From an uncultured Eubacteriales bacterium (lineage in GTDB: Bacteria; Bacillota; Clostridia; Lachnospirales; Bianqueaceae): a stretch of 63,656 bases of DNA. Made by a program: the position numbers and the translations under genes. Below, piece by piece: positions 24,213 to 39,916 of the stretch. The stretch spans positions 1-63,656 of the forward strand of contig CACZRP010000043.1 in NCBI GenBank assembly GCA_902783575.1, written 5' to 3'. The notes under the pieces were generated by a model that was not told the DNA's origin, ran no database searches, and saw only the letters and a program-made list of their open reading frames with translations. Position 1 is the first letter of the stretch. The number at the start of each line of letters is the position of its first letter.

Positions 24213-25634
24213 TTACTCAACTTTTTTCCGTTCCGAGAGCCTTTCCTCGAAGCGGTTTTTTCTTGTGTCGGATGGAATTCTTGTGGGATAGCACCCGTCA
24301 AAGCAAGCGCTGCAGTAGTGCGTGCTCCCTGCCAGCTCCCCGAGACTTTCCACGGGTAGAAAGCCGAGGGAGTCCGCACCGATCAGCTCCGCGATCTCCG
24401 GAACCGAATGGTGACAAGCGATCAGATGATCCCTGGAATCGATATCGGTCCCGTAAAAGCACGGATGGAGAAAAGGCGGCGCAGAGACACGCATGTGAAT
24501 TTCCTTTGCTCCGGCATCACGTAAAAGAGAAACGATATGTCCGCTGGTAGTACCCCGGACGATCGAATCATCAATCAGAACGATGCGTTTTCCTTTTACG
24601 GCGTCTTCCACCGGGGTGAGCTTGATATTTACCTGACCGGCTCGGTTATCCGGCGCGATAAAAGTCCTTCCGATATATTTGTTCTTGATCAGACCGATCT
24701 CATAAGGAATTCCGGAAGCACGACTGTAACCCAGCGCAGCATCCAGACCGGAGTCGGGTACTCCAACCACAAGATCCGCCGAAACAGGATGCGTCCGGGC
24801 CAGGATCTCTCCCGCCTTCAGGCGCGAAGCATGAACTGACCGGCTGTCGATTACCGAATCCGGACGAGCGAAGTAGATATATTCAAAAACGCAGAGCTTT
24901 TTCTCTTCTTTTCCGCAATGTTCGCGGCGGGAAACGATCCCGTCCTGGCTGAAGATCAGAATCTCTCCGGGTTCTACATCCCGCACAAATTCCGCTCCGA
25001 CGGCATGGAGCGCCGCACTTTCTGAAGCGACTACTGTGACAGAATCCGCTGTTTTGCCAAAGCACAGGGGGCGAAAACCATGGGGGTCCCGGGCACAGAT
25101 CAACTTCTGCGGACTCATCAGGATCAGGGAATATGCACCCTCCAGCTTATTCATGGCCCGGCTGAGGGCTTCCTCAATAGAAGCTGAGGACAGCCGTTCC
25201 CTTGTGACAATGTAGGCGATGGTCTCGGTGTCACTTGATGTGTGAAAGATCGCTCCGCTTAGTTCCAACGCCGAGCGAAGCTCTGCGGCATTGGACAAAT
25301 TGCCGTTGTGGGCAATAGCCATCCGGCCTTTCTGATGATTAACCTCGATCGGCTGGCAATTGGCCCGGTTTGTCTTTCCCGTCGTGCCATAGCGGGTATG
25401 GGCTACTGCCATGGTTCCAAGAGGGAGAGAGGAAAGTACGTCTGTAGAAAAAACCTCGCTTACCAGTCCCAGATCCTTGTGCGAATAGAAAAGACCGTCA
25501 TCACCTACCACAATGCCGCAGCTCTCCTGTCCTCGGTGCTGCAAGGCAAAAAGTCCGTAATAGCAAAGCCCTGCCACGTTGATCGGATGGTCGGCCAGAA
25601 CGCCGAAAACGCCGCATTCCTCGTGAATACTCAT
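24213..25634 (-). CDS. purF: Amidophosphoribosyltransferase
   Basis: First committed step of purine synthesis: it transfers glutamine amide nitrogen onto PRPP to give phosphoribosylamine. At 473 residues it has the usual length. The N-terminal class II glutaminase has nucleophile Cys7, exposed after removal of the MSIHEE propeptide, followed by GLFALQHRGQESCG. The C-terminal phosphoribosyltransferase carries the PRPP loop RIVLIDDSIVRGTTSGHIV. The Cys motif THYCSACFDGCYP near the end suggests the Fe-S cluster form known in Bacillus. It is the last gene of a glutamine-metabolism operon instead of a pur cluster, which fits control by nitrogen status. Confidence 0.95.
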   Translation of the reverse strand: MSIHEECGVFGVLADHPINVAGLCYYGLFALQHRGQESCGIVVGDDGLFYSHKDLGLVSEVFSTDVLSSLPLGTMAVAHTRYGTTGKTNRANCQPIEVNHQKGRMAIAHNGNLSNAAELRSALELSGAIFHTSSDTETIAYIVTRERLSSASIEEALSRAMNKLEGAYSLILMSPQKLICARDPHGFRPLCFGKTADSVTVVASESAALHAVGAEFVRDVEPGEILIFSQDGIVSRREHCGKEEKKLCVFEYIYFARPDSVIDSRSVHASRLKAGEILARTHPVSADLVVGVPDSGLDAALGYSRASGIPYEIGLIKNKYIGRTFIAPDNRAGQVNIKLTPVEDAVKGKRIVLIDDSIVRGTTSGHIVSLLRDAGAKEIHMRVSAPPFLHPCFYGTDIDSRDHLIACHHSVPEIAELIGADSLGFLPVESLGELAGSTHYCSACFDGCYPTRIPSDTRKNRFEERLSERKKVE

Positions 25635-25711: not shown

Positions 25712-26296
25712 TTACGTATAAGTTGTAATGATATCTTCCGCCACCTTCCGGCGGGAGATACTATGGTCCATGGCACGCTTTTCGATGACCCGGTGGGCTT
25801 CCGCTTCCGACAGACCTGCTTGGGAAATCAACAGCCATTTAGCCCGGTTAACGAGCCGGATTTCTTCCATCTTGTCTTCAACAGAAAGGGTTTTCTTCTC
25901 CTGCGTCCGTAAAAGCTCCCGGGCGCTTTTCATCCAGGAAAGGCCGCGGATCAGGCTTTGCTGGTGCACCGGTCTTGGCAAGGTAAAAACCCCAAAAGGA
26001 ACGACCTTCTCGGTAATCTCTTCATAAAGCTCCATGCTGGTAATCAGCAGGACGGCACACCGTCCGCTTCCCGCCGCGTCTATGGCGAAGCGGATACCGG
26101 TGTCATCAGGCAGCGGAGAATTAATCAGAATCAGATCAAAGCTCCGGTCCCTGAGAAGCCGTTTGGCCAGACTGATATGGTCGGCCTCGGTAACCGGCTG
26201 GCATCCCAGACGGACCAACAACTTCTTCACAGGAGAAGTCATCTTTTCCGCCGATGAAACGAGGAGAGTCCGGTAGGTTCTCTCTTTCAGATCCAT
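25712..26296 (-). CDS. ANTAR-domain antitermination regulator with degenerate receiver
   Basis: A 194-residue RNA-binding regulator. Residues about 8-125 form a receiver-like fold (TLLVSSAEKM, FDLILINSPLPDDTG), but the phospho-acceptor Asp is replaced by Asn59, so phosphorylation by a histidine kinase is unlikely. A helical linker leads to the C-terminal ANTAR domain (KMEEIRLVNRAKWLLISQ through KVAEDIITTY). ANTAR proteins bind hairpins with hexaloops that have A1 and G4 and prevent terminator formation. Two such hairpins lie in the leaders at 32612-32631 and 32765-32782. It sits between glnA and purF, so the protein would autoregulate its own operon. GAGG lies 7 bases before the ATG. How it senses nitrogen is unknown. 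Confidence 0.92.
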   Translation of the reverse strand: MDLKERTYRTLLVSSAEKMTSPVKKLLVRLGCQPVTEADHISLAKRLLRDRSFDLILINSPLPDDTGIRFAIDAAGSGRCAVLLITSMELYEEITEKVVPFGVFTLPRPVHQQSLIRGLSWMKSARELLRTQEKKTLSVEDKMEEIRLVNRAKWLLISQAGLSEAEAHRVIEKRAMDHSISRRKVAEDIITTYT

Positions 26297-26314: not shown

Positions 26315-27523
26315 TTAATGCTTCAGATAAGCTTCTAAAAGCTCGGCAGGAATATGTTCTCTGATAAAAGCACTCTCAGCTGCCAGATGACGGGCTTTCT
26401 CGAGGCTGTCAGGAAGTTTCTTTAACGAAGAGACGGCGTCCAGATCCGTCAGGTACAGATTCCGGTCTTCGCCAGCCTTCGGCGAAAGATGGTTCTGGAT
26501 TCCCTCCAGCGCCGCATCAATCATCAGGGCAAACGCAAGGTAAGGATTGGCCAAGGGATCAGCGCTTCGAAGCTCCATCCGACGGTACTGTCCCTTCGCG
26601 GCAGGAATCCGGATCAGCTGGGAGCGGTTTCCATGAGACCAGGAAATATACTGAGGCGCTTTATGATCACCCAGACGCAGATAGGATTCTTTTACCGGGT
26701 TCAGAAAAGCCGTCATATCCAGAATATGCTCCAGTATGCCGCCGATCATCCCGGAAAAGGCCTCTTCGGAGTGGGGCTGAACAGACAGGTTGATATGAAA
26801 TCCGCTGCCGGGCTGTCCGGGAAGCGGTTTTGGAGAAAAATCAGCTTCCAGTCCGTTTCGAAAAGCAATGGTCTTAACGACCCGCTGGAACGTTATGGCC
26901 TGGTCGGCAGCGGTCAAAGGATCGCTGTATCTGAAATCGATCTCATTCTGGCCTGGTCCCTCTTCGTGATGAGAACGCTCCGGATGAAGCCCCATCTTCT
27001 CCAGGGTCAGACAGATTTCCCGCCGGACATTCTCACCATGATCCTCCGGGGCAATGTCCATATAACCGGCCTCATCGCAGGGAATCCGGGTAGGCTTGCT
27101 GTTCTCATCCAGCAGAAACAGATAGAATTCCTGCTCAGCACCGAAGGAAAAATCGTATCCTGCCTCGTGGGCCCTGCGAGCAGATTCCTTCAGCAGATAC
27201 CGGGTATCCTTCAGAAACGGCCTGCCATTTGGATCCGTAATCGAAGAAAACATCTGGACAACCTGACCGTGCTCAGGCCGCCAGGGAAGCGGCATGAGGC
27301 TCTCAGGCTCCGGATGAAGAAAGAGATCGCTGCAGGCCTCATCGGTAAAGCCGGCGATGGCGGAACCATCGAAGGAAATCCCATCCTCGAAAGCCCGCTC
27401 CAGTTCTCCCGGCATGATGGAAATATTTTTAGGCTTTCCGAATACATCACAAAATGCCAGACGGATAAATTTGACGTCCTCTTCCCGGACGAACTGCAGA
27501 ACCTCTTCCTTAGAATAATTCAT
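26315..27523 (-). CDS. glnA: Glutamine synthetase, type I
   Basis: Makes glutamine from glutamate, ammonia and ATP. It has 402 residues, somewhat shorter than the usual 440-470. Features seen are the beta-Grasp start (VKFIRLAFCDVFGKPKNI, DGSAIAGF), GAEQEFYLF with metal-binding Glu, HEEGPGQNEIDFRY, SGFHINLSVQ, and the ATP/Arg segment SWSHGNRSQLIRIPAAKGQYRRMELRSADPLANPYLAFA. The adenylylation Tyr region of the beta type is absent, so control is not by adenylylation. The ATG at 27523 has AAGGAG five bases upstream; a GTG at 27529 is a less likely start. It is cotranscribed with the split glutamate synthase. Confidence 0.92.
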   Translation of the reverse strand: MNYSKEEVLQFVREEDVKFIRLAFCDVFGKPKNISIMPGELERAFEDGISFDGSAIAGFTDEACSDLFLHPEPESLMPLPWRPEHGQVVQMFSSITDPNGRPFLKDTRYLLKESARRAHEAGYDFSFGAEQEFYLFLLDENSKPTRIPCDEAGYMDIAPEDHGENVRREICLTLEKMGLHPERSHHEEGPGQNEIDFRYSDPLTAADQAITFQRVVKTIAFRNGLEADFSPKPLPGQPGSGFHINLSVQPHSEEAFSGMIGGILEHILDMTAFLNPVKESYLRLGDHKAPQYISWSHGNRSQLIRIPAAKGQYRRMELRSADPLANPYLAFALMIDAALEGIQNHLSPKAGEDRNLYLTDLDAVSSLKKLPDSLEKARHLAAESAFIREHIPAELLEAYLKH

Positions 27524-27557
27524 AATCACTCCTTGTAAACTTGAACCCTTGGGGAAG

Positions 27558-28283
27558 CTAAACCCCGGCTGTGTAGAGTTGTTTGTATGGGTTTTTGGAG
27601 TCCGGCGTCACCACTGTAAACGGCCCCTCCAGCACCTGAGCGAAGGAATAGCCGAACAGCATGCAAAACTCCCGCACATAAGGTTCGATCTCTTCAAGAT
27701 CGGCGGGGGAGGCCGGTCTGGCGCTCACCTGCTCCGGAAAAACCACGTCATGACAATCGGAGCGAAGAAACACTTTTCCGCCATGCATCCCGGTACAGGG
27801 AAAATAGCCAACACATTTTTCAGATGGCTTTTCAAGATTCAGCACCGCGATCAGCCCGCCGGCCTGATATTCGCCCAGAAAGCTGCCGGCCCGCCCGCCG
27901 ATTACCATGACCGGCTTCTTATCCTGATAGGCCTTCATATGGATGCCCGCCCGATAACCGGCATTGCCCTTTACATAGATTTTTCCGCCCCGCATGGCAT
28001 AGCCGGCTGCGTCACCGATACTGCCATAGACAATGATGCTGCCATTGTTCATGGTATCGCCCACAGCATCCTGGGCATTGCCTTTCACGCTCAGATGGCT
28101 TCCATTCAGATAAGCCCCCAGTGCGTTCCCCGGAATCCCGTGAATTTCAATCGTTTTGTCACAGGTGCCGGCACCGATAAAGCGCTGCCCGAGGCAGTTT
28201 TCAATAAGCGTATCCTCCGGGGCTTCCCGGATTTTCTGGTTTAATGCCTGATGATCCAAACCGGCTGCATCAATAAACACCAT
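27558..28283 (-). CDS. Glutamate synthase GXGXG (alpha-3) domain subunit
   Basis: A 241-residue protein of the GXGXG right-handed beta-helix family (C-terminal domain of GltB, also FwdC/FmdC). Repeating signatures are seen: EIHGIPGNALGAYLNGSHLSV, GDTMNNGSIIVYGSIGDAAG, YAMRGGKIYVKGNAGYRAGI and MVIGGRAGSFLGEYQAGGLI. In Bacteria this domain is normally fused to GltB. A separate gene is the archaeal-type arrangement. Upstream in the same operon are the GATase and FMN subunits. The ATG at 28283 with GGAGG is preferred over a TTG at 28301. It starts one base after the previous gene stops. Confidence 0.88.
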   Translation of the reverse strand: MVFIDAAGLDHQALNQKIREAPEDTLIENCLGQRFIGAGTCDKTIEIHGIPGNALGAYLNGSHLSVKGNAQDAVGDTMNNGSIIVYGSIGDAAGYAMRGGKIYVKGNAGYRAGIHMKAYQDKKPVMVIGGRAGSFLGEYQAGGLIAVLNLEKPSEKCVGYFPCTGMHGGKVFLRSDCHDVVFPEQVSARPASPADLEEIEPYVREFCMLFGYSFAQVLEGPFTVVTPDSKNPYKQLYTAGV

Positions 28284-28284
28284 A

Positions 28285-29514
28285 TTATACCGCACCTCCA
28301 AACTTTTTTCTACGGATTTCTGCAGAATACGCCGCTGTTGTGGGCATCTTTTTCATCAATTCTTCATTCAGGGAAGAGAGCGGTACCTGATCACGGATCA
28401 AAGAAGTATAGATTCCCGCACGTTCCTGAACGCCGATCAGCATAAAGCCCTTCAGCAGATCATCCTGGATATACAGACGTTTAATGGAATGGTCGGTTTT
28501 CTCCTCATAAAGCGTCCCCTCATAGCTCCCGGCCGTCAGGGCATGTAAACCGAAAAAGCCGATGGCATTCATCGGGATCAGGTTCGTCAGGGCCTGGGAA
28601 GCACCGGTCATATTGACGCCGGCTGTAAAACCCTGCATCGAAGCGTTGGGAAGGATCGCCATGATCCGTTTCTTACCGCAGGACAGATCAAATCCCTGCG
28701 TGCAGTCTCCGGCGGCATAGATGTGCTCAATCGAGGTCGCCATCCGCTCATCCACCAGAATACCCCGGTCTGTTTTCCCTTCCAGCTCCTTGAACAAGGT
28801 CAGATTCGGCCGCACCCCCACACAAAGAACCAGCACATCGAAAGAGACTTCTTTTCCGCTGGCCATATAGGCCAGATTCTTCTCAAACCGCTTCACACTG
28901 TCGCCCAGCAGAAACTGCATGCCGTACCGCTCAAGATGCTGCTGCATCAGTGCGGCGCAGGGTTCATCCAGAATACTGGAAAGAATCCGGTCCGCCAGAT
29001 CGCAGACAGTGACTGACTGCACTCGCCTGAGCAGTCCCTCCGCGCATTTAAGGCCGATCAGGCCGGCCCCGATAATCAGCACCCTGGACGAGGCCCCCAC
29101 CATTTTCTCCAGACGGAGCATATCCTCCAGACTCATAAAAGCAGTCTTATTCTCCACCGTCTCAAGTCCCTCAAAAGCAGGAACAAAAGGAGAGGATCCT
29201 GTCGCCAGACAGAGCTCATCATATGGCAGTACCTCCCCGTCTGAAAGCAGCACCTCCTGCTGATCCTTCCGGATAGAGACAGCCCTCGTGCCATAGCGGA
29301 TATCCGCATTGATCTTCTGATAAAAATCCCCGTCCCGGTACTTCATATGATCCAGGGAAGTTTTTCCTTCCAGATAATAAGAGATGAGAGGTCGGTAGTA
29401 CAGCTCCTTTTCTTCGCTGATCACCGTTACAATCCCTCGCTGGTCCCGGGAGCGGATTCCTTCGGCGCAGCTGGCCGCGGCGATGCCGCCTCCGATGATC
29501 ACATAGCGTTTCAT
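28285..29514 (-). CDS. FAD-dependent NAD(P) oxidoreductase, nitrite-reductase/rubredoxin-reductase type
   Basis: A 409-residue pyridine nucleotide-disulfide-type reductase. FAD dinucleotide fold: YVIIGGGIAAASCAEGIR. NAD(P) fold: RVLIIGAGLIGLKCAEGL. Second FAD contact: HIYAAGDCTQG. A C-terminal domain of about 90 residues follows. It likely supplies electrons to the Fe-S subunits of the split glutamate synthase, taking the place of GltD. It shares a TGATG overlap with the upstream Fe-S protein, so translation is coupled. Confidence 0.88.
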   Translation of the reverse strand: MKRYVIIGGGIAAASCAEGIRSRDQRGIVTVISEEKELYYRPLISYYLEGKTSLDHMKYRDGDFYQKINADIRYGTRAVSIRKDQQEVLLSDGEVLPYDELCLATGSSPFVPAFEGLETVENKTAFMSLEDMLRLEKMVGASSRVLIIGAGLIGLKCAEGLLRRVQSVTVCDLADRILSSILDEPCAALMQQHLERYGMQFLLGDSVKRFEKNLAYMASGKEVSFDVLVLCVGVRPNLTLFKELEGKTDRGILVDERMATSIEHIYAAGDCTQGFDLSCGKKRIMAILPNASMQGFTAGVNMTGASQALTNLIPMNAIGFFGLHALTAGSYEGTLYEEKTDHSIKRLYIQDDLLKGFMLIGVQERAGIYTSLIRDQVPLSSLNEELMKKMPTTAAYSAEIRRKKFGGAV

Positions 29515-29954
29515 CAGATCACCTCCCGCTCTTCATATACAATGGCCCGGTTGGGACACCCGGCGACACAGGCAGGTTCCCCAAGACCGTTAGTAAGACA
29601 AAGCTCACATTTGCTCATCAGGCCGTCTGCACCCGGTGCCAGGGCTCCGTAGGGACAGACCAGCAGGCAGGTGTAACAGCCAACGCAGCGGCTGTGATCG
29701 ATCTGAACAACGCCAGCATCGCTTTTGGAAAGCGCCCCCGCGATGCAGCTTCTGACACAGATCGGATCCTCACAGTGCCGGCAGGAGACCGCATAGGTAA
29801 TCTTGTCGTCTCCTTCCACATGAATATTCGGAAAAATCGACTTTCCCTTCAAGGCCACTGCCATGTTCGGTTTACCGGAATTAGCGAAGGCACAGTTGTA
29901 TTCACACAGATGGCAGCCAAGGCACCACTCTTCATTCACATAAACCCTTTTCAT
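29514..29954 (-). CDS. Four-cluster ferredoxin-type electron transfer protein
   Basis: A 146-residue Fe-S protein of the HycB/CooF-like dicluster family. Cys motifs in order: CLGCHLCEYNC, CRHCEDPICVRSC, CVGCYTCLLVCPYG, then CELC with CVAGCPN. These would bind up to four [4Fe-4S] clusters. It probably connects the FAD reductase with the FMN subunit of glutamate synthase. It is directly flanked by both genes, with 2-base spacing upstream and a one-base overlap downstream. Confidence 0.9.
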   Translation of the reverse strand: MKRVYVNEEWCLGCHLCEYNCAFANSGKPNMAVALKGKSIFPNIHVEGDDKITYAVSCRHCEDPICVRSCIAGALSKSDAGVVQIDHSRCVGCYTCLLVCPYGALAPGADGLMSKCELCLTNGLGEPACVAGCPNRAIVYEEREVI

Positions 29955-29956
29955 CT

Positions 29957-31462
29957 CTACTCTCCTGCATGGGAGATTCCCAAAATCTCCAGCTCTTTCC
30001 CGCTTAGTCCGACACCGCGCAGCATCAGCCGGTTCCCCTTTAAAGCTTCGATGGAATTAATTCCCATACCGCCCATCAGCTCCATAATCTCGTGCCGCCA
30101 GGCATTCATCAGATTGACGAGCCGCTCGCTGCCGATATCCGGATTGAGCCTTTTGACCAGGTCCGGCCGCTGGGTCGCGATCCCCCAGTTGCATTTGCCG
30201 CTGTGACAGGTCCGGCAAAGATGACATCCCAGAGCCAAAAGAGCCGCCGTGGCGATGTAGCAGGCATCCGCCCCCAGCGCGATGGCCTTGACCACATCGG
30301 AGGCGCAGCGGATAGAACCGCCGACCACCAGGGAAACATTTCCCCGGATGCCTTCATCCCGCAGCCGTCTGTCCACGCTGGCGAGTGCCAGCTCGATCGG
30401 AATGCCCACATTGTCCCGGATCCGGGTGGGGGCCGCCCCGGTACCGCCCCGAAATCCGTCGATGGCGATGATATCCGCTCCGGACCGGGCGATGCCGCTG
30501 GCGATGGCCGCAATGTTGTGTACCGCCGCCACTTTGACAATAACCGGTTTTTCATAGTTAGTCGCTTCCTTTAAGGAATAGACCAGCTGCCTCAGATCCT
30601 CAATGGAATAAATATCATGGTGCGGGGCCGGGGAAATCGCATCGGTTCCCTCCGGGATCATCCGGGTCCGGGAAACATCGCCGACGATTTTGGCACCGGG
30701 CAGATGACCGCCGATGCCGGGCTTGGCGCCCTGGCCCATCTTGATCTCGATGGCGGCTCCGGCCTCAAGATAACCCTCATGAACACCGAACCGGCCGCTG
30801 GCCACCTGGACGATGGTGTTTGGCCCGTATCTGTAAAAATCTTCATGAAGACCGCCCTCACCGGTGTTGTACAGGATCCCCAGCTTGGTGGAAGCCCTGG
30901 CCAGGGATGCGTGGGCGTTGTAGCTGATGGAGCCATAGCTCATGGCAGAAAACATGACCGGCATGGACAAAGTGATCTGTGGCGGCAGCTTCGTGATAAG
31001 GTTCCCTTCCGGATCCCGGCTGATCTTTTCCGGCCTTTTTCCCAGAAACACCTTTGTTTCCATGGGCTCGCGCAGCGGATCAATGGACGGATTGGTGACC
31101 TGGGAAGCATTAATGAGGATTCTGTCCCAGTAAACCGGGTAAGGCTTCGGTGTGCCCATGGAAGAGAGCAGTACACCGCCGGTGGAGGCCTGACGGTAAA
31201 CCTCTTTAATCAGATCCGGCTGCCAGTTGGCGTTCTCCCGGAAGCTGCAAGGATTTTTGACAATTTTCAAAGCTCTGGTGGGGCAGAGACTGACACAGCG
31301 CTGACAGTTCACACACCTGGTCTCATCGCTGAGCATCATACCGGCTTCCTCTGAGTAGCTGTGTACCTCATTCGCGCATTGACGCTCGCAGACCCGGCAG
31401 TGGATGCACCGTTGTTCATTGCGGACGACTTCAAATTCCGGAACTATATAGTCTATACCCAT
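29957..31462 (-). CDS. Glutamate synthase FMN/Fe-S core subunit (GltB2-like)
   Basis: A 501-residue protein equal to the synthase domain of GltB with an N-terminal ferredoxin unit (CIHCRVCERQC and CVNCQRCVSLCPTRAL). The FMN barrel shows MSYGSISYNAHASLARAS, YNTGEGGLHE, GQGAKPGIGGHLPG, the IDGFRGGTGAAP glycine-rich loop and the cluster motif CHLCRTCHSGKCNWGIATQ. It makes glutamate from 2-oxoglutarate and ammonia delivered by the separate GATase subunit. The arrangement matches archaeal and Clostridial ferredoxin-linked glutamate synthases. It overlaps the GATase gene end by 10 bp, so translation is coupled. Confidence 0.93.
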   Translation of the reverse strand: MGIDYIVPEFEVVRNEQRCIHCRVCERQCANEVHSYSEEAGMMLSDETRCVNCQRCVSLCPTRALKIVKNPCSFRENANWQPDLIKEVYRQASTGGVLLSSMGTPKPYPVYWDRILINASQVTNPSIDPLREPMETKVFLGKRPEKISRDPEGNLITKLPPQITLSMPVMFSAMSYGSISYNAHASLARASTKLGILYNTGEGGLHEDFYRYGPNTIVQVASGRFGVHEGYLEAGAAIEIKMGQGAKPGIGGHLPGAKIVGDVSRTRMIPEGTDAISPAPHHDIYSIEDLRQLVYSLKEATNYEKPVIVKVAAVHNIAAIASGIARSGADIIAIDGFRGGTGAAPTRIRDNVGIPIELALASVDRRLRDEGIRGNVSLVVGGSIRCASDVVKAIALGADACYIATAALLALGCHLCRTCHSGKCNWGIATQRPDLVKRLNPDIGSERLVNLMNAWRHEIMELMGGMGINSIEALKGNRLMLRGVGLSGKELEILGISHAGE

Positions 31463-32553
31463 TTCATTGCCTCTTCCTTCACTTTTACCACCACGGCCTC
31501 GCCGCCGGAGGGGGCCCAGATATTCTCTGTATCCGGCTCCAGGGCCCGGATGGCTGCCTCTTCACTGGCAATAAAGACCTTATCCTCTTTTTCTCCCACT
31601 ACCATGGAACGAAGCTTCAGCCGGTCGTTCAGTGCCATCAGTCCGCCGGTAAATCCGAAGACAATGGAAAAAGGACCGGTAATGAGCAAAGAAGGGAACA
31701 TCATCCGAAGATAGGCGTGCCGTTCCTTCTCTTCGTTTTTCTCAGCTTCAATGGTGCTCCAGAAAGGCGCCGCGATAACACTGGCTGCCTCTTTTAGGGT
31801 AAGTCCCTGCCGGCGGATCAGATAGTCCATAATATAGGTTATGACTTCCGTATCGGTCTGCAGCGTGCACTGATAACCGAACATTTCTATAAAACGCCGG
31901 TTGGCGTCATAGGAAGAAATCTCCCCATTGTGAACCACGGAATAATCCAGCAGGGTAAAGGGATGAGCCCCGCCCCACCAGCCGGGTGTATTGGTAGGAT
32001 AACGGCCGTGGGCGGTCCAGGAATAACCTTCATATTCCTCCAGCCGGTAAAAAAGACCTACATCCTCCGGGAAGCCCACGGCCTTGAAGGTCCCCATATT
32101 TTTCCCGCTGGAGAAAACATAGGCGCCTGACATCTCGCGGTTGATTTTCATCACACACCGGGCCACCAGTTCCTTCTCGTCCAGCTGAAGCCTTATGAGC
32201 AGAGAGGGAAGAGGCGAAACAAAATAACGCCAGATCATGGGCTCATCGGTAATCAAAGGAATCGTGCGGGTCGGGATCCGCTCCGATTGAACGATCTCAA
32301 AATATTCTTTCAGAAAAGATTCACAGTTCTTCCTTGTCGTCCTGTCATCAAAAAACAGATGCAGCGCATAAAAATCTTTATACTCCGGATAGATACCATA
32401 ACCGGCAAAACCGCCGCCAAGACCGTTGGACCGCTCGTGCATTGGGATCATGGAACGGGCGATGCCTTCGCCGCTCATCAGTTTTCCTTCGGTTGAAATG
32501 ACGGCCGCGATGGCGCAGCCGGAAGGAATCCGGATCTGACCTTCTTTCTCCAT
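31453..32553 (-). CDS. Glutamate synthase class II glutaminase subunit (GltB1-like)
   Basis: A 366-residue protein with an Ntn-type glutamine amidotransferase fold. The nucleophile is Cys13 in PSGCAIAAVI, freed after removal of a 12-residue propeptide. Further motifs are NGLGGGFAGYGIYP, AHGRYPTNTPGWWGGAHPF and SVVHNGEISSYDANRRF. It hydrolyses glutamine and passes ammonia to the FMN subunit next to it. It is the first gene of the left nitrogen operon. Its leader carries the ANTAR hairpin and attenuator. The ribosome binding site AAGGAA lies about 10 bases before the ATG. Confidence 0.9.
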   Translation of the reverse strand: MEKEGQIRIPSGCAIAAVISTEGKLMSGEGIARSMIPMHERSNGLGGGFAGYGIYPEYKDFYALHLFFDDRTTRKNCESFLKEYFEIVQSERIPTRTIPLITDEPMIWRYFVSPLPSLLIRLQLDEKELVARCVMKINREMSGAYVFSSGKNMGTFKAVGFPEDVGLFYRLEEYEGYSWTAHGRYPTNTPGWWGGAHPFTLLDYSVVHNGEISSYDANRRFIEMFGYQCTLQTDTEVITYIMDYLIRRQGLTLKEAASVIAAPFWSTIEAEKNEEKERHAYLRMMFPSLLITGPFSIVFGFTGGLMALNDRLKLRSMVVGEKEDKVFIASEEAAIRALEPDTENIWAPSGGEAVVVKVKEEAMKWV

Positions 32554-32579: not shown

Positions 32580-32631
32580 AAAAAAAGCGCCCATCCCACA
32601 CAAAAAAGAGGGATGAACGCCTTTGCTCATC
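32580..32631 (-). promoter_or_regulatory. ANTAR-type antiterminator hairpin and attenuator, left arm
   Basis: Read leftward, GATGAGC and GTTCATC (32631-32625 and 32618-32612) form a 7-bp stem around hexaloop AAAGGC, with A at 1 and G at 4 as ANTAR domains require. The 3' strand of this hairpin is also the 5' strand of a terminator (GGCGTTCATCCC at 32621-32610 with GGGATGGGCGC at 32597-32587, then seven T). The two folds exclude each other. The hairpin lies at or within a base or two of the predicted transcription start. Confidence 0.8.
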
Positions 32632-32638
32632 TGCAGGA

Positions 32639-32667
32639 AGTATATACCGGATCTTTCATCTTGTCAA
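32639..32667 (-). promoter_or_regulatory. Promoter of left nitrogen operon
   Basis: On the minus strand -35 TTGACA (32667-32662), 17-bp spacer, -10 TATACT (32644-32639). Start of transcription is expected near 32632. Confidence 0.85.
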
Positions 32668-32694
32668 GAAATATTTGAAATAATATCGGCAATC

Positions 32695-32719
32695 TGCAGG
32701 ATTTGAAAAAAATCCTGCA
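32695..32719. promoter_or_regulatory. Central dyad between divergent promoters
   Basis: Perfect inverted repeat TGCAGGATTT / AAATCCTGCA with a five-base spacer, placed about 28 bp from the left -35 box and 8 bp from the right -35 box. It may be a shared operator for an unidentified protein. Confidence 0.6.
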
Positions 32720-32726
32720 AAAGGTG

Positions 32727-32755
32727 TTGACAAATCAGGATCAGGGGAGTAGAAT
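32727..32755 (+). promoter_or_regulatory. Promoter of right nitrogen operon
   Basis: Consensus -35 TTGACA (32727-32732), 17-bp spacer, -10 TAGAAT (32750-32755). Start of transcription is expected near 32762. Confidence 0.85.
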
Positions 32756-32764
32756 AGCGCTCGT

Positions 32765-32819
32765 AAAGGCAAAGGCGTCTTTCGTATATCCGCGAAAGGC
32801 GCCTTTGTCTTATTTTTTT
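32765..32819 (+). promoter_or_regulatory. ANTAR-type antiterminator hairpin and attenuator, right arm
   Basis: AAAGGC (32765-32770) pairs with GTCTTT (32777-32782) around hexaloop AAAGGC (A1, G4), identical to the loop in the left arm. The overlapping terminator has a 17-bp stem (32768-32784 with 32793-32809) followed by TTATTTTTTT. The hairpin and terminator cannot form together. The transcript begins only a few bases before the hairpin. Confidence 0.82.
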
Positions 32820-32846: not shown

Positions 32847-34943
32847 ATGAAAAGCGTACCGGAATATTTTGGAAGCCAGGTTTTTGATGACCGTGTGATG
32901 AGATCCAGACTCTCAGCCGATGTCTATGCCTCTCTCAGAAAAACCATCGATGAAGGACATCAGCTGGATTTGTCCGTCGCCAATTCGGTGGCCGAGGCCA
33001 TGAAAACCTGGGCTGTAGAGAAGGGCGCCACCCATTTTACCCACTGGTTCCAGCCCCTGACCGGTATCACGGCTGAAAAGCATGACAGCTTCATCTCCCC
33101 CTCGCCGGACGGCAGTGTCATCATGGAGTTTTCGGGCAAGGAGCTGATCAAGGGCGAGCCGGATGCCTCCTCCTTCCCCAGCGGCGGCCTGAGAGCTACC
33201 TTCGAAGCCAGAGGCTATACCGCCTGGGATCCCACCTCTTACGCATTTATTAAAGGAAAAACTCTGTGTATTCCGACGGCCTTCTGTTCCTATGGCGGGC
33301 ACGCCCTGGACAAGAAAACCCCGCTGCTAAGGTCCATGGAAGCGCTGAACACTCAGGCTTTGCGGATTCTGCGGCTCTTTGGAAACACCACGGCCAAACG
33401 GGTTGTTTCCTCTGTGGGACCGGAGCAGGAATACTTCCTGATTACCCGGGAGATGTACGAAAAGCGCCCGGATCTGAAATATACCGGCAGAACGCTTTTC
33501 GGCGCCAAACCGCCCAAAGGCCAGGAGCTGGATGATCATTATTTCGGAGCCATCAAGCCCGGCGTGGCTGCCTTTATGGAGGATTTGAATGACGAACTCT
33601 GGAAGCTGGGCATCATGGCAAAAACCGAACATAACGAAGTTGCCCCCGCCCAGCATGAGCTGGCCCCGATTTACACCACCACGAATATCGCCACAGATCA
33701 TAACCAGCTGACCATGGAGATCATGCAGAAAGTGGCTGCCCGGCACGGCCTCGTCTGCCTGCTGCATGAAAAACCCTTCGCCGGCGTCAACGGCTCCGGT
33801 AAACATAACAACTGGTCCATTGCCACCGACAGCGGTCAGAACCTGCTGTCTCCGGGAGAAACTCCCTACGAAAATGCCCAGTTCCTGCTCTTTTTGTGCG
33901 CAGTGATTAAAGCCGTTGATGACTATCAGGATCTGTTGAGGCTTTCCGTGGCCACTGCCGGCAACGATCACCGACTGGGCGCCAACGAAGCGCCGCCGGC
34001 TGTCATCTCCATGTTCCTGGGAGACGAGCTGGAAGCGGTGATGGAGGCCATCGAGAAGGATATCCCCTATGCCGGCAGCGAAAAAACCAAGATGAAGCTG
34101 GGGGTGGATGTTCTCCCGCAGTTCAACCGGGACAACACGGACCGTAACCGGACCTCGCCCTTTGCCTTTACCGGCAACAAGTTCGAATTCCGGATGCTGG
34201 GTTCCTCCAACAGTATCGCCTGCGCGAATATTATGCTGAACAGCGCAGTGGCTGAGAGCCTTCGGATTTACGCGGATCGGCTGGAAAACGTGGAGGACTT
34301 TGAAACCACGCTGCACGAAATGATCCGTAAAACCATTAAGGACCACCGCCGGATTATTTTCAACGGCAACGGATACGATGAGTCCTGGATCAAGGAAGCC
34401 ACCGAGAAAAGAGGCCTTCTGAACTACCGGACCACGGCGGACTGCATGCCCCATCTGCTGGACGAAAAGAACGTGGCCATGCTCACCGGTCTGAAAGTCT
34501 TTACCGAGGCCGAGCTTTATTCCAGACGCGATATTATGCTGGAAAACTACTGCAAGAGCGTCATGATCGAGGCCGGAACCATGGTGGAAATGGCCAGAAG
34601 GATGATCGCGCCGGCCACCTTGCGCTATGCGGCCGATGTGGCCAGGGCGGCGGTCGCCAAAAAGACGATTTCTGAAGCACTTCCCTGCAGCTGCGAGGTC
34701 AGGCTTGTTGAAAAACTGTCCGAGTTGGCGGACCAGATAGCTGAAAGGACAGATGAGCTGGCCAGCAGGTTGGAAGAAGTCCAGGGCATAGACGATATTG
34801 TAGAGCAGTCAGCGGCGGTACGGGACAGACTGCTGCCTCAGATGAGCGAGCTCAGAGATCCCTGCGATCAGGCCGAGCAGCTGACAGAGAGAAGCTACTG
34901 GCCCATGCCGACTTATGGAGAAATCCTGTTCAGTGTGAAATAA
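32847..34943 (+). CDS. glnN: Glutamine synthetase, type III
   Basis: A 698-residue glutamine synthetase of the large GSIII class. Motifs seen are [21 protein letters not shown], the [12 protein letters not shown] glutamate, [54 protein letters not shown] and a C-terminal helical extension ([20 protein letters not shown]). GSIII enzymes act as dodecamers and are often induced under nitrogen limitation. This is the first gene of the right arm, behind the ANTAR attenuator. AAAGGAG lies 7 bases before the ATG. Confidence 0.96.
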
Positions 34944-34995: not shown

Positions 34996-36723
34996 ATGTC
35001 AGTTGAGTTTTGGTTTTTGATAGGAGCCGCATTGGTTTTCTGGATGCAGGCAGGCTTTGCCATGGTGGAGACAGGCTTTACCAGAGCCAAGAACGCCGGC
35101 AATATTATAATGAAGAATCTGATGGATTTCTGTATCGGTACCGTGGTCTTCTCCCTGCTGGGTTACACCCTGATGATGGGAGAGGACACCTTCTTCGGCC
35201 TGATTGGAAAACCAAATTTGAATCTGTTTACGCATTTTAAAGAGTTCATCGAATCCCCTTCCGAGGGCTTTACCGACGCCAGCTATTTCGTTTTCAATCT
35301 GGTGTTCTGCGCCACTACGGCGACCATCGTTTCCGGAGCCATGGCGGAGCGGACGAAATTTTCCGCCTACTGTGTCTACTCGGGCGTGATCTCTCTGCTG
35401 ATCTATCCGATCGAAGCGCACTGGATCTGGGGCGGCGGCTGGCTCAGTCAGATGGGCTTCCATGACTATGCCGGCTCCTGTGCCATCCATATGGTGGGCG
35501 GCATCGCCGCTTTGATTGGCGCGATGTTCCTGGGGCCCCGCATCGGAAAATATGTCCGGGACAAAGAGGGAAAGATCGTCAAGGTCAACGCGATTCCCGG
35601 TCATTCCATCCCGCTCGGCGCGCTGGGTGTGTTTATCCTGTGGCTTGGCTGGTATGGCTTTAACGGTGCTGCGGCTGCGACCCCCAGCGAGCTCTCTTCG
35701 ATTTTCCTGACCACCACCATCGCCCCTGCGGTGGCCACCTGCACCACCATGGTCTACACCTGGGTTAAAAACGGAAAACCGGATGTTTCCATGTGTCTGA
35801 ACGCGTCTCTGGCCGGTCTGGTGGGCATTACCGCCGGATGTGACGCGCTGGATGCCATCGGCGCTTCCCTTGTCGGCATCGTTTCCGGCATTCTGGTAGT
35901 GGTTGTCGTGGAAAAGCTGGATCTGAAATATCATATCGACGATCCGGTGGGTGCGGTTGGCGTTCATTGCGCGAACGGCATCTGGGGTACCATCGCGGTG
36001 GGTCTGCTGGCCAATCCGGACGCACCGGCCGGCCTGAAGGGACTGCTTTATACCGGCAGTTTCACACAGCTGGGAATTCAGCTGCTGGGTTTTGCCGCGG
36101 TGGCAGCCTGGGCGGCGCTTACCATGACGGTATTTTTCTGGATTCTGAAAAAGGCTGACTTTCTCCGGGCTGACCGGGCCGATGAGCTGTCCGGACTTGA
36201 CGCCAGCGAGCACGGACTGCCCAGCGCCTACGCTGATTTTATGCCCGCTGTGGATAAGTACGCCGCCTTCGGAACCGATGGCGTGACGGCTGTGACCGGC
36301 ACCACGCCTCCGGCAGAAGCGATCCAGGTCAAGCGGGAGCCTGCCTTCGCAGCAGCGGCGAACGGGCACAAATTTACCAAGGTGGAGATTGTCTGTAAGG
36401 AAGAGCGGTTCTATGCGCTGAAGGAAGCCATGAGCCTGCTTGGTATTACCGGCATGACCGTATCCCATGTCATGGGTTATGGAATGCAGAAGGGTCATAC
36501 GGAATACTACCGCGGTGTCGCCGTGGAAACGGATCTGAGACCGAAGGTGCAGGTGGATATTGTTGTATCCGCCATCCCTGTAAGGGATGTGATTGAAACC
36601 GCTAAAAAGGTCCTGTATACCGGTCATATCGGCGATGGAAAGATCTTTGTCTACGATGTGGAGAATGTGGTGAAGGTCCGTACCGGAGAAGAGGGGTATG
36701 ACGCCCTTCAGGATGTGGAGTAA
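34996..36723 (+). CDS. Ammonium transporter fused to a PII signal protein
   Basis: A 575-residue fusion. Residues 1-405 are an AmtB-type ammonium channel with eleven membrane segments (MVETGFTRAKNAGNIIMKNLMDF, GGWLSQMGFHDYAGSCAIHMVGG, DDPVGAVGVHCANGIWGT). After a linker of about 50 residues, residues 459-571 are a GlnK/PII domain (KFTKVEIVCKEERFYALKEA, YTGHIGDGKIFVYDVENVVKVRTGE). PII normally blocks Amt via its T-loop. In the T-loop, GHTEYYRGVAVETDLRPKV matches GlnK in length, but the uridylylated Tyr51 position is Val, so control by GlnD-type uridylylation is not possible. ATP/2-oxoglutarate sensing in cis is the likely mode. Confidence 0.93.
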   Translation: MSVEFWFLIGAALVFWMQAGFAMVETGFTRAKNAGNIIMKNLMDFCIGTVVFSLLGYTLMMGEDTFFGLIGKPNLNLFTHFKEFIESPSEGFTDASYFVFNLVFCATTATIVSGAMAERTKFSAYCVYSGVISLLIYPIEAHWIWGGGWLSQMGFHDYAGSCAIHMVGGIAALIGAMFLGPRIGKYVRDKEGKIVKVNAIPGHSIPLGALGVFILWLGWYGFNGAAAATPSELSSIFLTTTIAPAVATCTTMVYTWVKNGKPDVSMCLNASLAGLVGITAGCDALDAIGASLVGIVSGILVVVVVEKLDLKYHIDDPVGAVGVHCANGIWGTIAVGLLANPDAPAGLKGLLYTGSFTQLGIQLLGFAAVAAWAALTMTVFFWILKKADFLRADRADELSGLDASEHGLPSAYADFMPAVDKYAAFGTDGVTAVTGTTPPAEAIQVKREPAFAAAANGHKFTKVEIVCKEERFYALKEAMSLLGITGMTVSHVMGYGMQKGHTEYYRGVAVETDLRPKVQVDIVVSAIPVRDVIETAKKVLYTGHIGDGKIFVYDVENVVKVRTGEEGYDALQDVE

Positions 36724-36735
36724 CAGGGGGATAAA

Positions 36736-39916
<3,181 letters not shown>

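Follow-up and report, generated by a model that had tools for sequence, protein, structure and literature searches.

The window (the whole stretch of DNA analysed, 63,656 nucleotides) holds two divergent nitrogen operons, each of which begins with a leader containing one A1/G4 hexaloop hairpin that overlaps an intrinsic terminator. We consider it likely, with a probability of about 0.8, that both operons are under transcription attenuation via ANTAR antitermination at this single hexaloop. RNA binding and antitermination are inferred; no 5'-end, binding or expression data are at hand. Shown by computation are the anatomy of the leaders, their conservation and covariation, the absence of a P1 hairpin, the co-occurrence with ANTAR, the glnA-ANTAR gene pair and the pseudo-receiver of the regulator. 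ANTAR control of glutamine synthetase (GS) and glutamate synthase (GOGAT) genes by NitR in Clostridium was already known (PMC6316151, PMC4676874). New is a widespread ANTAR target which lacks P1 and is coupled to a terminator.

Two divergent operons and their leaders

The two operons are separated by a gap of 293 nt. The left operon (minus strand) encodes a split GOGAT, with the glutaminase (class II GATase) subunit as first gene (31453-32553), a glutamate synthase domain protein (29957-31462; PF01645, 7e-139), a 4Fe-4S ferredoxin-type subunit (29514-29954), a GltD-like FAD/NAD oxidoreductase (28285-29514) and a GXGXG-domain subunit (27558-28301). These are followed by type I glutamine synthetase (GS I, glnA; 26315-27529), the ANTAR regulator (25712-26296) and a PurF-like amidophosphoribosyltransferase (24213-25634). 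The right arm (plus strand) starts with type III glutamine synthetase (GS III; 32847-34943; PF12437, 4.9e-81) and continues with an ammonium transporter carrying a fused C-terminal P-II domain (Amt-PII; 34996-36723; PF00909, 3e-117; PF00543, 3e-23), asparagine synthase B (AsnB; 36736-38319) and CTP synthase (PyrG; 38225-39916, longest ORF). The last 95 nt of asnB also lie within the longest pyrG ORF, in which the CTP synthase domain begins at residue 36; the true start is likely to be found near 38330. All gene identities of the original prediction, made from the letters of the DNA before this analysis, were confirmed (GS I, GOGAT, PurF, GS III, Amt-PII, AsnB, PyrG), and so was the location of the ANTAR gene inside the left arm. 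Regarding its claim that the ANTAR protein controls itself plus both arms, co-transcription of PurF, whose gene follows that of the ANTAR protein after 77 nt, with the left operon is an inference only.

Both promoters are of the sigma70 type and match the consensus at 11 of 12 positions, with TTGACA-17-TATACT for the left operon (32667-32639, minus strand) and TTGACA-17-TAGAAT for the right arm (32727-32755, plus strand). Relatives compared with the minus-strand leader keep the promoter at the same position before the hairpin. The minus hairpin gatgagc[AAAGGC]gttcatc (32631-32612), the proposed ANTAR site and antiterminator, begins 7 nt after the -10 box, and the plus hairpin aaaggc[AAAGGC]gtcttt (32765-32782), again a proposed ANTAR site, 9 nt after it. 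In both leaders a longer terminator uses the loop and 3' arm of the hairpin as its own 5' arm; this terminator is AAAGGCGTTCATCCC...GGGATGGGCGCTTTT plus T-tract on the minus strand (32624-32578) and 32771-32806 followed by a T-tract on the plus strand (whole feature 32771-32819). Hairpin and terminator are therefore mutually exclusive.

The two AAAGGC hairpins sharing bases with terminators had been predicted, and both sequence and folding upheld this. Isolated hairpins folded with -7.4 kcal/mol (shuffle z -6.2) on the minus strand and -4.0 kcal/mol (z -2.6) on the plus strand, while the full leaders folded into the terminators (minus -26.7 kcal/mol, z -5.8; plus -32.7 kcal/mol, z -8.5). By these values the hairpin of the minus strand is robust, that of the plus strand weak when alone. 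We are aware that the observation is least secure for the plus hairpin: an extended terminator can recruit its 5' arm as well, which explains part of the stem conservation in the plus leader.

Measured against the definition of ANTAR-target RNAs (Ramesh 2012; PMC3369931), both leaders possess the A1/G4 hexaloop hairpin as well as its overlap with, and exclusion of, an intrinsic terminator. They lack the third feature, two hairpins (P1 and P2) in tandem, separated by a short linker, and no second A1/G4 hexaloop hairpin adjoins either leader hairpin. Their anatomy fits the single-hexaloop minimal motif (Walshe 2022; PMC8934654), with binding inferred in the absence of binding data. The Rfam search gave no matches for the window at gathering scores, and only chance matches for the leader region.

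Single-hairpin leaders in related genomes

Nine loci with relatives of the ANTAR protein (37-97% identity, from metagenome-assembled genomes of rumen and gut Clostridia) were compared, and eight of them carried the same element, usually directly after a promoter. Of the 295 genomes of the order, 97 had ANTAR relatives when searched with an alignment of ten orthologues. An A1/G4 hexaloop hairpin overlapping a terminator was found near a promoter at 35 of the 70 ANTAR loci scanned; about half of these loci had no such leader nearby. A pattern containing neither gene information nor any pairing beyond the closing C-G (TTGACA-N16-18-TANNNT-N9-19-CAAAGGCG) matched 90 of the 295 genomes, its reversed control 3. 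An ANTAR domain was present in 85 of the 90 positive genomes; expressed by ANTAR status, the pattern occurred in 85/202 genomes with and 5/93 without ANTAR (Fisher 6e-12). Restriction to near-complete genomes of the order gave 70/167 versus 0/46, and extension to the phylum 32/173 versus 6/175 (4e-6). The sequences are related, and counts across genomes are not independent events. For the link between ANTAR and leader RNA only this co-occurrence is shown; RNA binding is inferred. Using a relaxed pattern in the source genome, the two leaders were the only convincing matches (3 others have poor -35 boxes), and the regulon of this genome rests on such pattern searches.

Homologues of the window's nitrogen genes were located within 600 nt downstream of 72 among 115 distinct pattern matches, namely GS III (24), Amt-PII (19), GOGAT (14), GS I (10), AsnB (3), PurF (1) and PyrG (1). 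Amt-PII homologues are the second commonest target among single-hairpin leaders. These 72 leaders, picked regardless of pairing, served as the set for the structure test. Stem positions 2, 3, 4 and 5 were paired in 100, 96, 90 and 67% of them, where base composition alone would predict 86, 76, 48 and 42%. After removal of identical arm pairs (51 left) 171 of 204 pairs formed, whereas 5,000 shuffles averaged 123.5 and never exceeded 148, and 18 different types of fully paired four-base arms were counted. Overlap with a terminator was found for 54/72 leaders versus 6/1440 shuffles. An independent scan for terminator-overlapping hairpins at this position, with any loop of 3-9 nt allowed, yielded 34 hairpins: 30 were hexaloops, all 30 of the A1/G4 type, and the other 4 were alternative folds of three leaders. 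Loop conservation in relatives, proposed originally as a check, thus came out positive, with A1/G4 kept and the stems covarying.

A referee may object that the loop is kept merely because the terminator begins with this A-rich stretch (AAAGGC pairs with GCCTTT), and that the leaders are plain attenuators, constitutive terminators or sites of another RNA-binding factor. The loop indeed pairs with GCCTTT of the terminator in many leaders, and the plus-strand 5' arm is able to join the terminator. However, the 3' arm covaries with 5' arms that are not part of the terminator, neither the length of the hexaloop nor A1/G4 varies, and the element is missing from all 46 near-complete ANTAR-less genomes of the order. 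We regard this explanation as unlikely.

The dual-hairpin reading was addressed by searching the leaders for P1 upstream and P2 downstream; a tandem partner was practically absent. One and the same P1 scan, covering 70 nt upstream and linkers of up to 25 nt, was used for both groups. At GS-linked ANTAR loci a P1 candidate of four pairs was found in 1 of 53 leaders and is probably due to chance. The canonical ANTAR loci of the phylum provide a small comparison set of 10 leaders; P1 was found in 5 of them (linkers 3-22 nt), therefore the scan sees dual leaders where they are present. Given its reach, the absence of P1 is independent of the inferred start site, and transcription from far upstream, which might have brought in a P1, finds none in the sequence whatever the start.

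One may still argue that the leaders are canonical dual-hairpin leaders with a degenerate, bulged or differently looped P1 missed by the scan. Known ANTAR antiterminators need both P1 and P2 (PMC3369931), and half of the canonical leaders were also without detectable P1. Against this, the promoter occupies the place of P1: the distance from -10 box to hairpin is 4-13 nt in the 72 nitrogen gene leaders versus 23-90 nt in those canonical leaders for which a -10 box was found, and the P1 frequencies (1/53 versus 5/10) differ as well. This alternative also appears unlikely, and the core of the original prediction, single-hairpin ANTAR leaders on both arms, is supported at the sequence level, with binding still inferred.

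The ANTAR regulator and a proposed mechanism

The NitR-like regulator (PF03861, 3.6e-15; 55.9 bits versus a curated cutoff of 27.3) is the sole ANTAR protein found in the source genome (86% complete). Sequence homology to Rv1626, EutV and AmiR settles its ANTAR fold. Residue comparison with EutV revealed a pseudo-receiver domain with Asn at the phospho-acceptor site. At this position (EutV D54) Asn is present in 61/70 orthologues, versus Asp in 24/30 and Glu in 6/30 proteins of the canonical set. The regulator thus lacks the phospho-acceptor Asp of phosphorylated receiver-ANTAR proteins (EutV/NasT type). EutV Met172 is required for RNA binding and Tyr164 stacks on G4 (PMC8934654); the Met172 position is invariant (70/70 orthologues), and the Tyr164 position is His in 70/70. 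The diverged ANTARs of another 20 pattern-positive genomes likewise lack the phospho-Asp, and His was found in 16. His alone is no marker of single-hairpin recognition, because the pseudo-receiver protein AmiR has it too. The upstream partner gene is glnA, 18 nt away on the same strand in the window, which meets the NitR-like criterion; the two genes adjoin on the same strand at 63/69 and 19/20 loci of the two groups (82/89).

We propose that RNA polymerase would start about 0-5 nt before the short A1/G4 hexaloop hairpin. By default the longer terminator would capture the hairpin loop and 3' arm, and transcription would end after about 55-60 nt. Itself a product of the left operon, the GS-linked ANTAR protein would grip the single hexaloop and stabilise the hairpin; with the hairpin held the terminator would be blocked and both arms transcribed, no P1 recruitment hairpin being involved. 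The signal is probably not delivered by a kinase, because the ANTAR receiver lacks a phosphorylatable Asp. GS I would be the likeliest sensor, perhaps binding ANTAR when feedback-inhibited by glutamine, and release of ANTAR from GS I under nitrogen limitation would turn the genes on. The sensor role of GS I is hypothetical, derived from the gene pairing, the pseudo-receiver and the analogy to TnrA of B. subtilis, which is controlled by GS (PMC6316151), and we would give it slightly less than even odds. The direction, on under nitrogen limitation, is inferred by analogy with the NitR literature (PMC6316151). Of the glutamine-economy switch claimed originally, ANTAR control of GS/GOGAT in Clostridia was known before (NitR; PMC3369931), and the glutamine signal remains hypothetical.

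A bolder reading would be a large undescribed class in Clostridia, with single-hexaloop ANTAR attenuators lacking the recruitment hairpin and pseudo-receiver ANTARs that have the glutamine synthetase encoded next to them as ligand; this GS, when feedback-inhibited, would hold ANTAR, and release at nitrogen limitation would antiterminate GS, GOGAT, Amt-PII and AsnB. We put this forward tentatively and consider it somewhat less likely than not. Single-hairpin function itself needs demonstration, because deletion of P1 abolishes EutV induction in E. faecalis (PMC3369931).

NitR of Clostridium saccharobutylicum, an ANTAR protein, is found with GS/GOGAT genes (Stutz 2007, cited in PMC6316151). This system and the C. 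thermocellum cluster Clo1313_2030-2036 (PMC4676874) resemble the window in that an ANTAR regulator is linked to GS and GOGAT genes. NitR acts by antitermination under nitrogen limitation, as proposed for the window, and C. thermocellum possesses the Amt-PII fusion elsewhere in its genome. Beyond what is known of these two systems, the present analysis contributes the single-hexaloop leader, its location at the 5' end and the divergent GS III arm; neither PMC6316151 nor PMC4676874 gives an RNA target structure. With the eut system EutV/EutW of Enterococcus faecalis (PMC3369931, PMC8934654) the window shares the A1/G4 hexaloop hairpin overlapping an intrinsic terminator and a receiver-ANTAR protein with conserved Met172. 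However, EutV leaders need P1, P2 and a phosphorylated receiver, whereas the leaders of the window have no P1 and its regulator carries Asn instead of the phospho-Asp and His instead of Tyr164. AmiR/AmiC of Pseudomonas aeruginosa resembles the window by a receiver without phospho-acceptor, a partner sensor which is not a kinase and His at the EutV Tyr164 position; there, the amiE leader was described as dual-hairpin (PMC3369931), and the partner in the window would be a glutamine synthetase. The single hexaloop of EutX/Rli55 and the mycobacterial ANTAR RNAs (PMC8934654) likewise fall outside the dual-hexaloop rule, but these are sequestering sRNA or RBS-overlapping sites, while those of the window are terminator-coupled.

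ANTAR leaders upstream of nitrogen genes were already reported (Ramesh 2012; PMC3369931). That study and an actinobacterial survey (PMC8164766) treated the dual hairpin as defining. Walshe 2022 (PMC8934654) reduced the minimal binding motif to one hexaloop, still assigned antitermination to both hairpins, and recommended further work and searches on single-hexaloop sites; in the EutV-RNA structure only one hairpin is contacted at a time (PMC8934654). No later paper on single-hexaloop ANTAR sites was found in the open-access literature searched, subscription papers not being covered. The leaders provide natural P1-less attenuators in dozens of genomes, which can reveal if P1 is necessary, what takes its place and what role dimerisation plays. 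The leaders also explain why, in many gut and rumen Clostridia, an ANTAR regulon covering central nitrogen assimilation would escape covariance searches based on dual hairpins.

Position of the hairpin units

Most single units are located at the RNA start. The hairpin begins 4-13 nt after the -10 box in 72/72 nitrogen gene leaders, a range limited by the pattern itself. The same peak (6-12 nt) was seen in another set, for which hairpin and terminator were the sole selection criteria; in this set 10/48 were without recognisable promoter and a few lay at 17-60 nt. Single hexaloop-terminator units were also observed between GS III and Amt-PII inside operons (L058:15134, L010:802, L085:10275), with no recognisable promoter nearby, and two single-hairpin attenuators in series within one leader at four loci (L049, L176, L212, L213). 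An obligatory 5'-end position was rejected. As units occur between operon genes and in tandem, the extreme 5' position is typical, not required, and the predicted switch at the very 5' end held only in part.

A further explanation is that a single ANTAR dimer bridges the hexaloops of both nascent divergent transcripts in trans, the hairpin of the neighbour replacing P1. In the crystal the EutV dimer contacts hexaloops of two RNA molecules (PMC8934654), and divergent leader pairs are common in the family of the window. However, leaders that stand alone (Amt, GS I, AsnB) or lie inside operons are numerous, and Walshe et al. (PMC8934654) judged such bridging too slow. We consider it very unlikely and prefer antitermination at one hexaloop per transcript.

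A perfect 10-bp inverted repeat, TGCAGGATTT-gaaaa-AAATCCTGCA (32695-32719), is located midway between the divergent -35 boxes and is possibly the operator of a DNA-binding regulator. A GCAGGAT/ATCCTGC operator common to all leaders was rejected, the half-site being found upstream of only 9/72. Between nitrogen genes at another locus (L048:9109-9160) a palindromic unit was observed in which hexaloop hairpin and terminator can be read on both strands.
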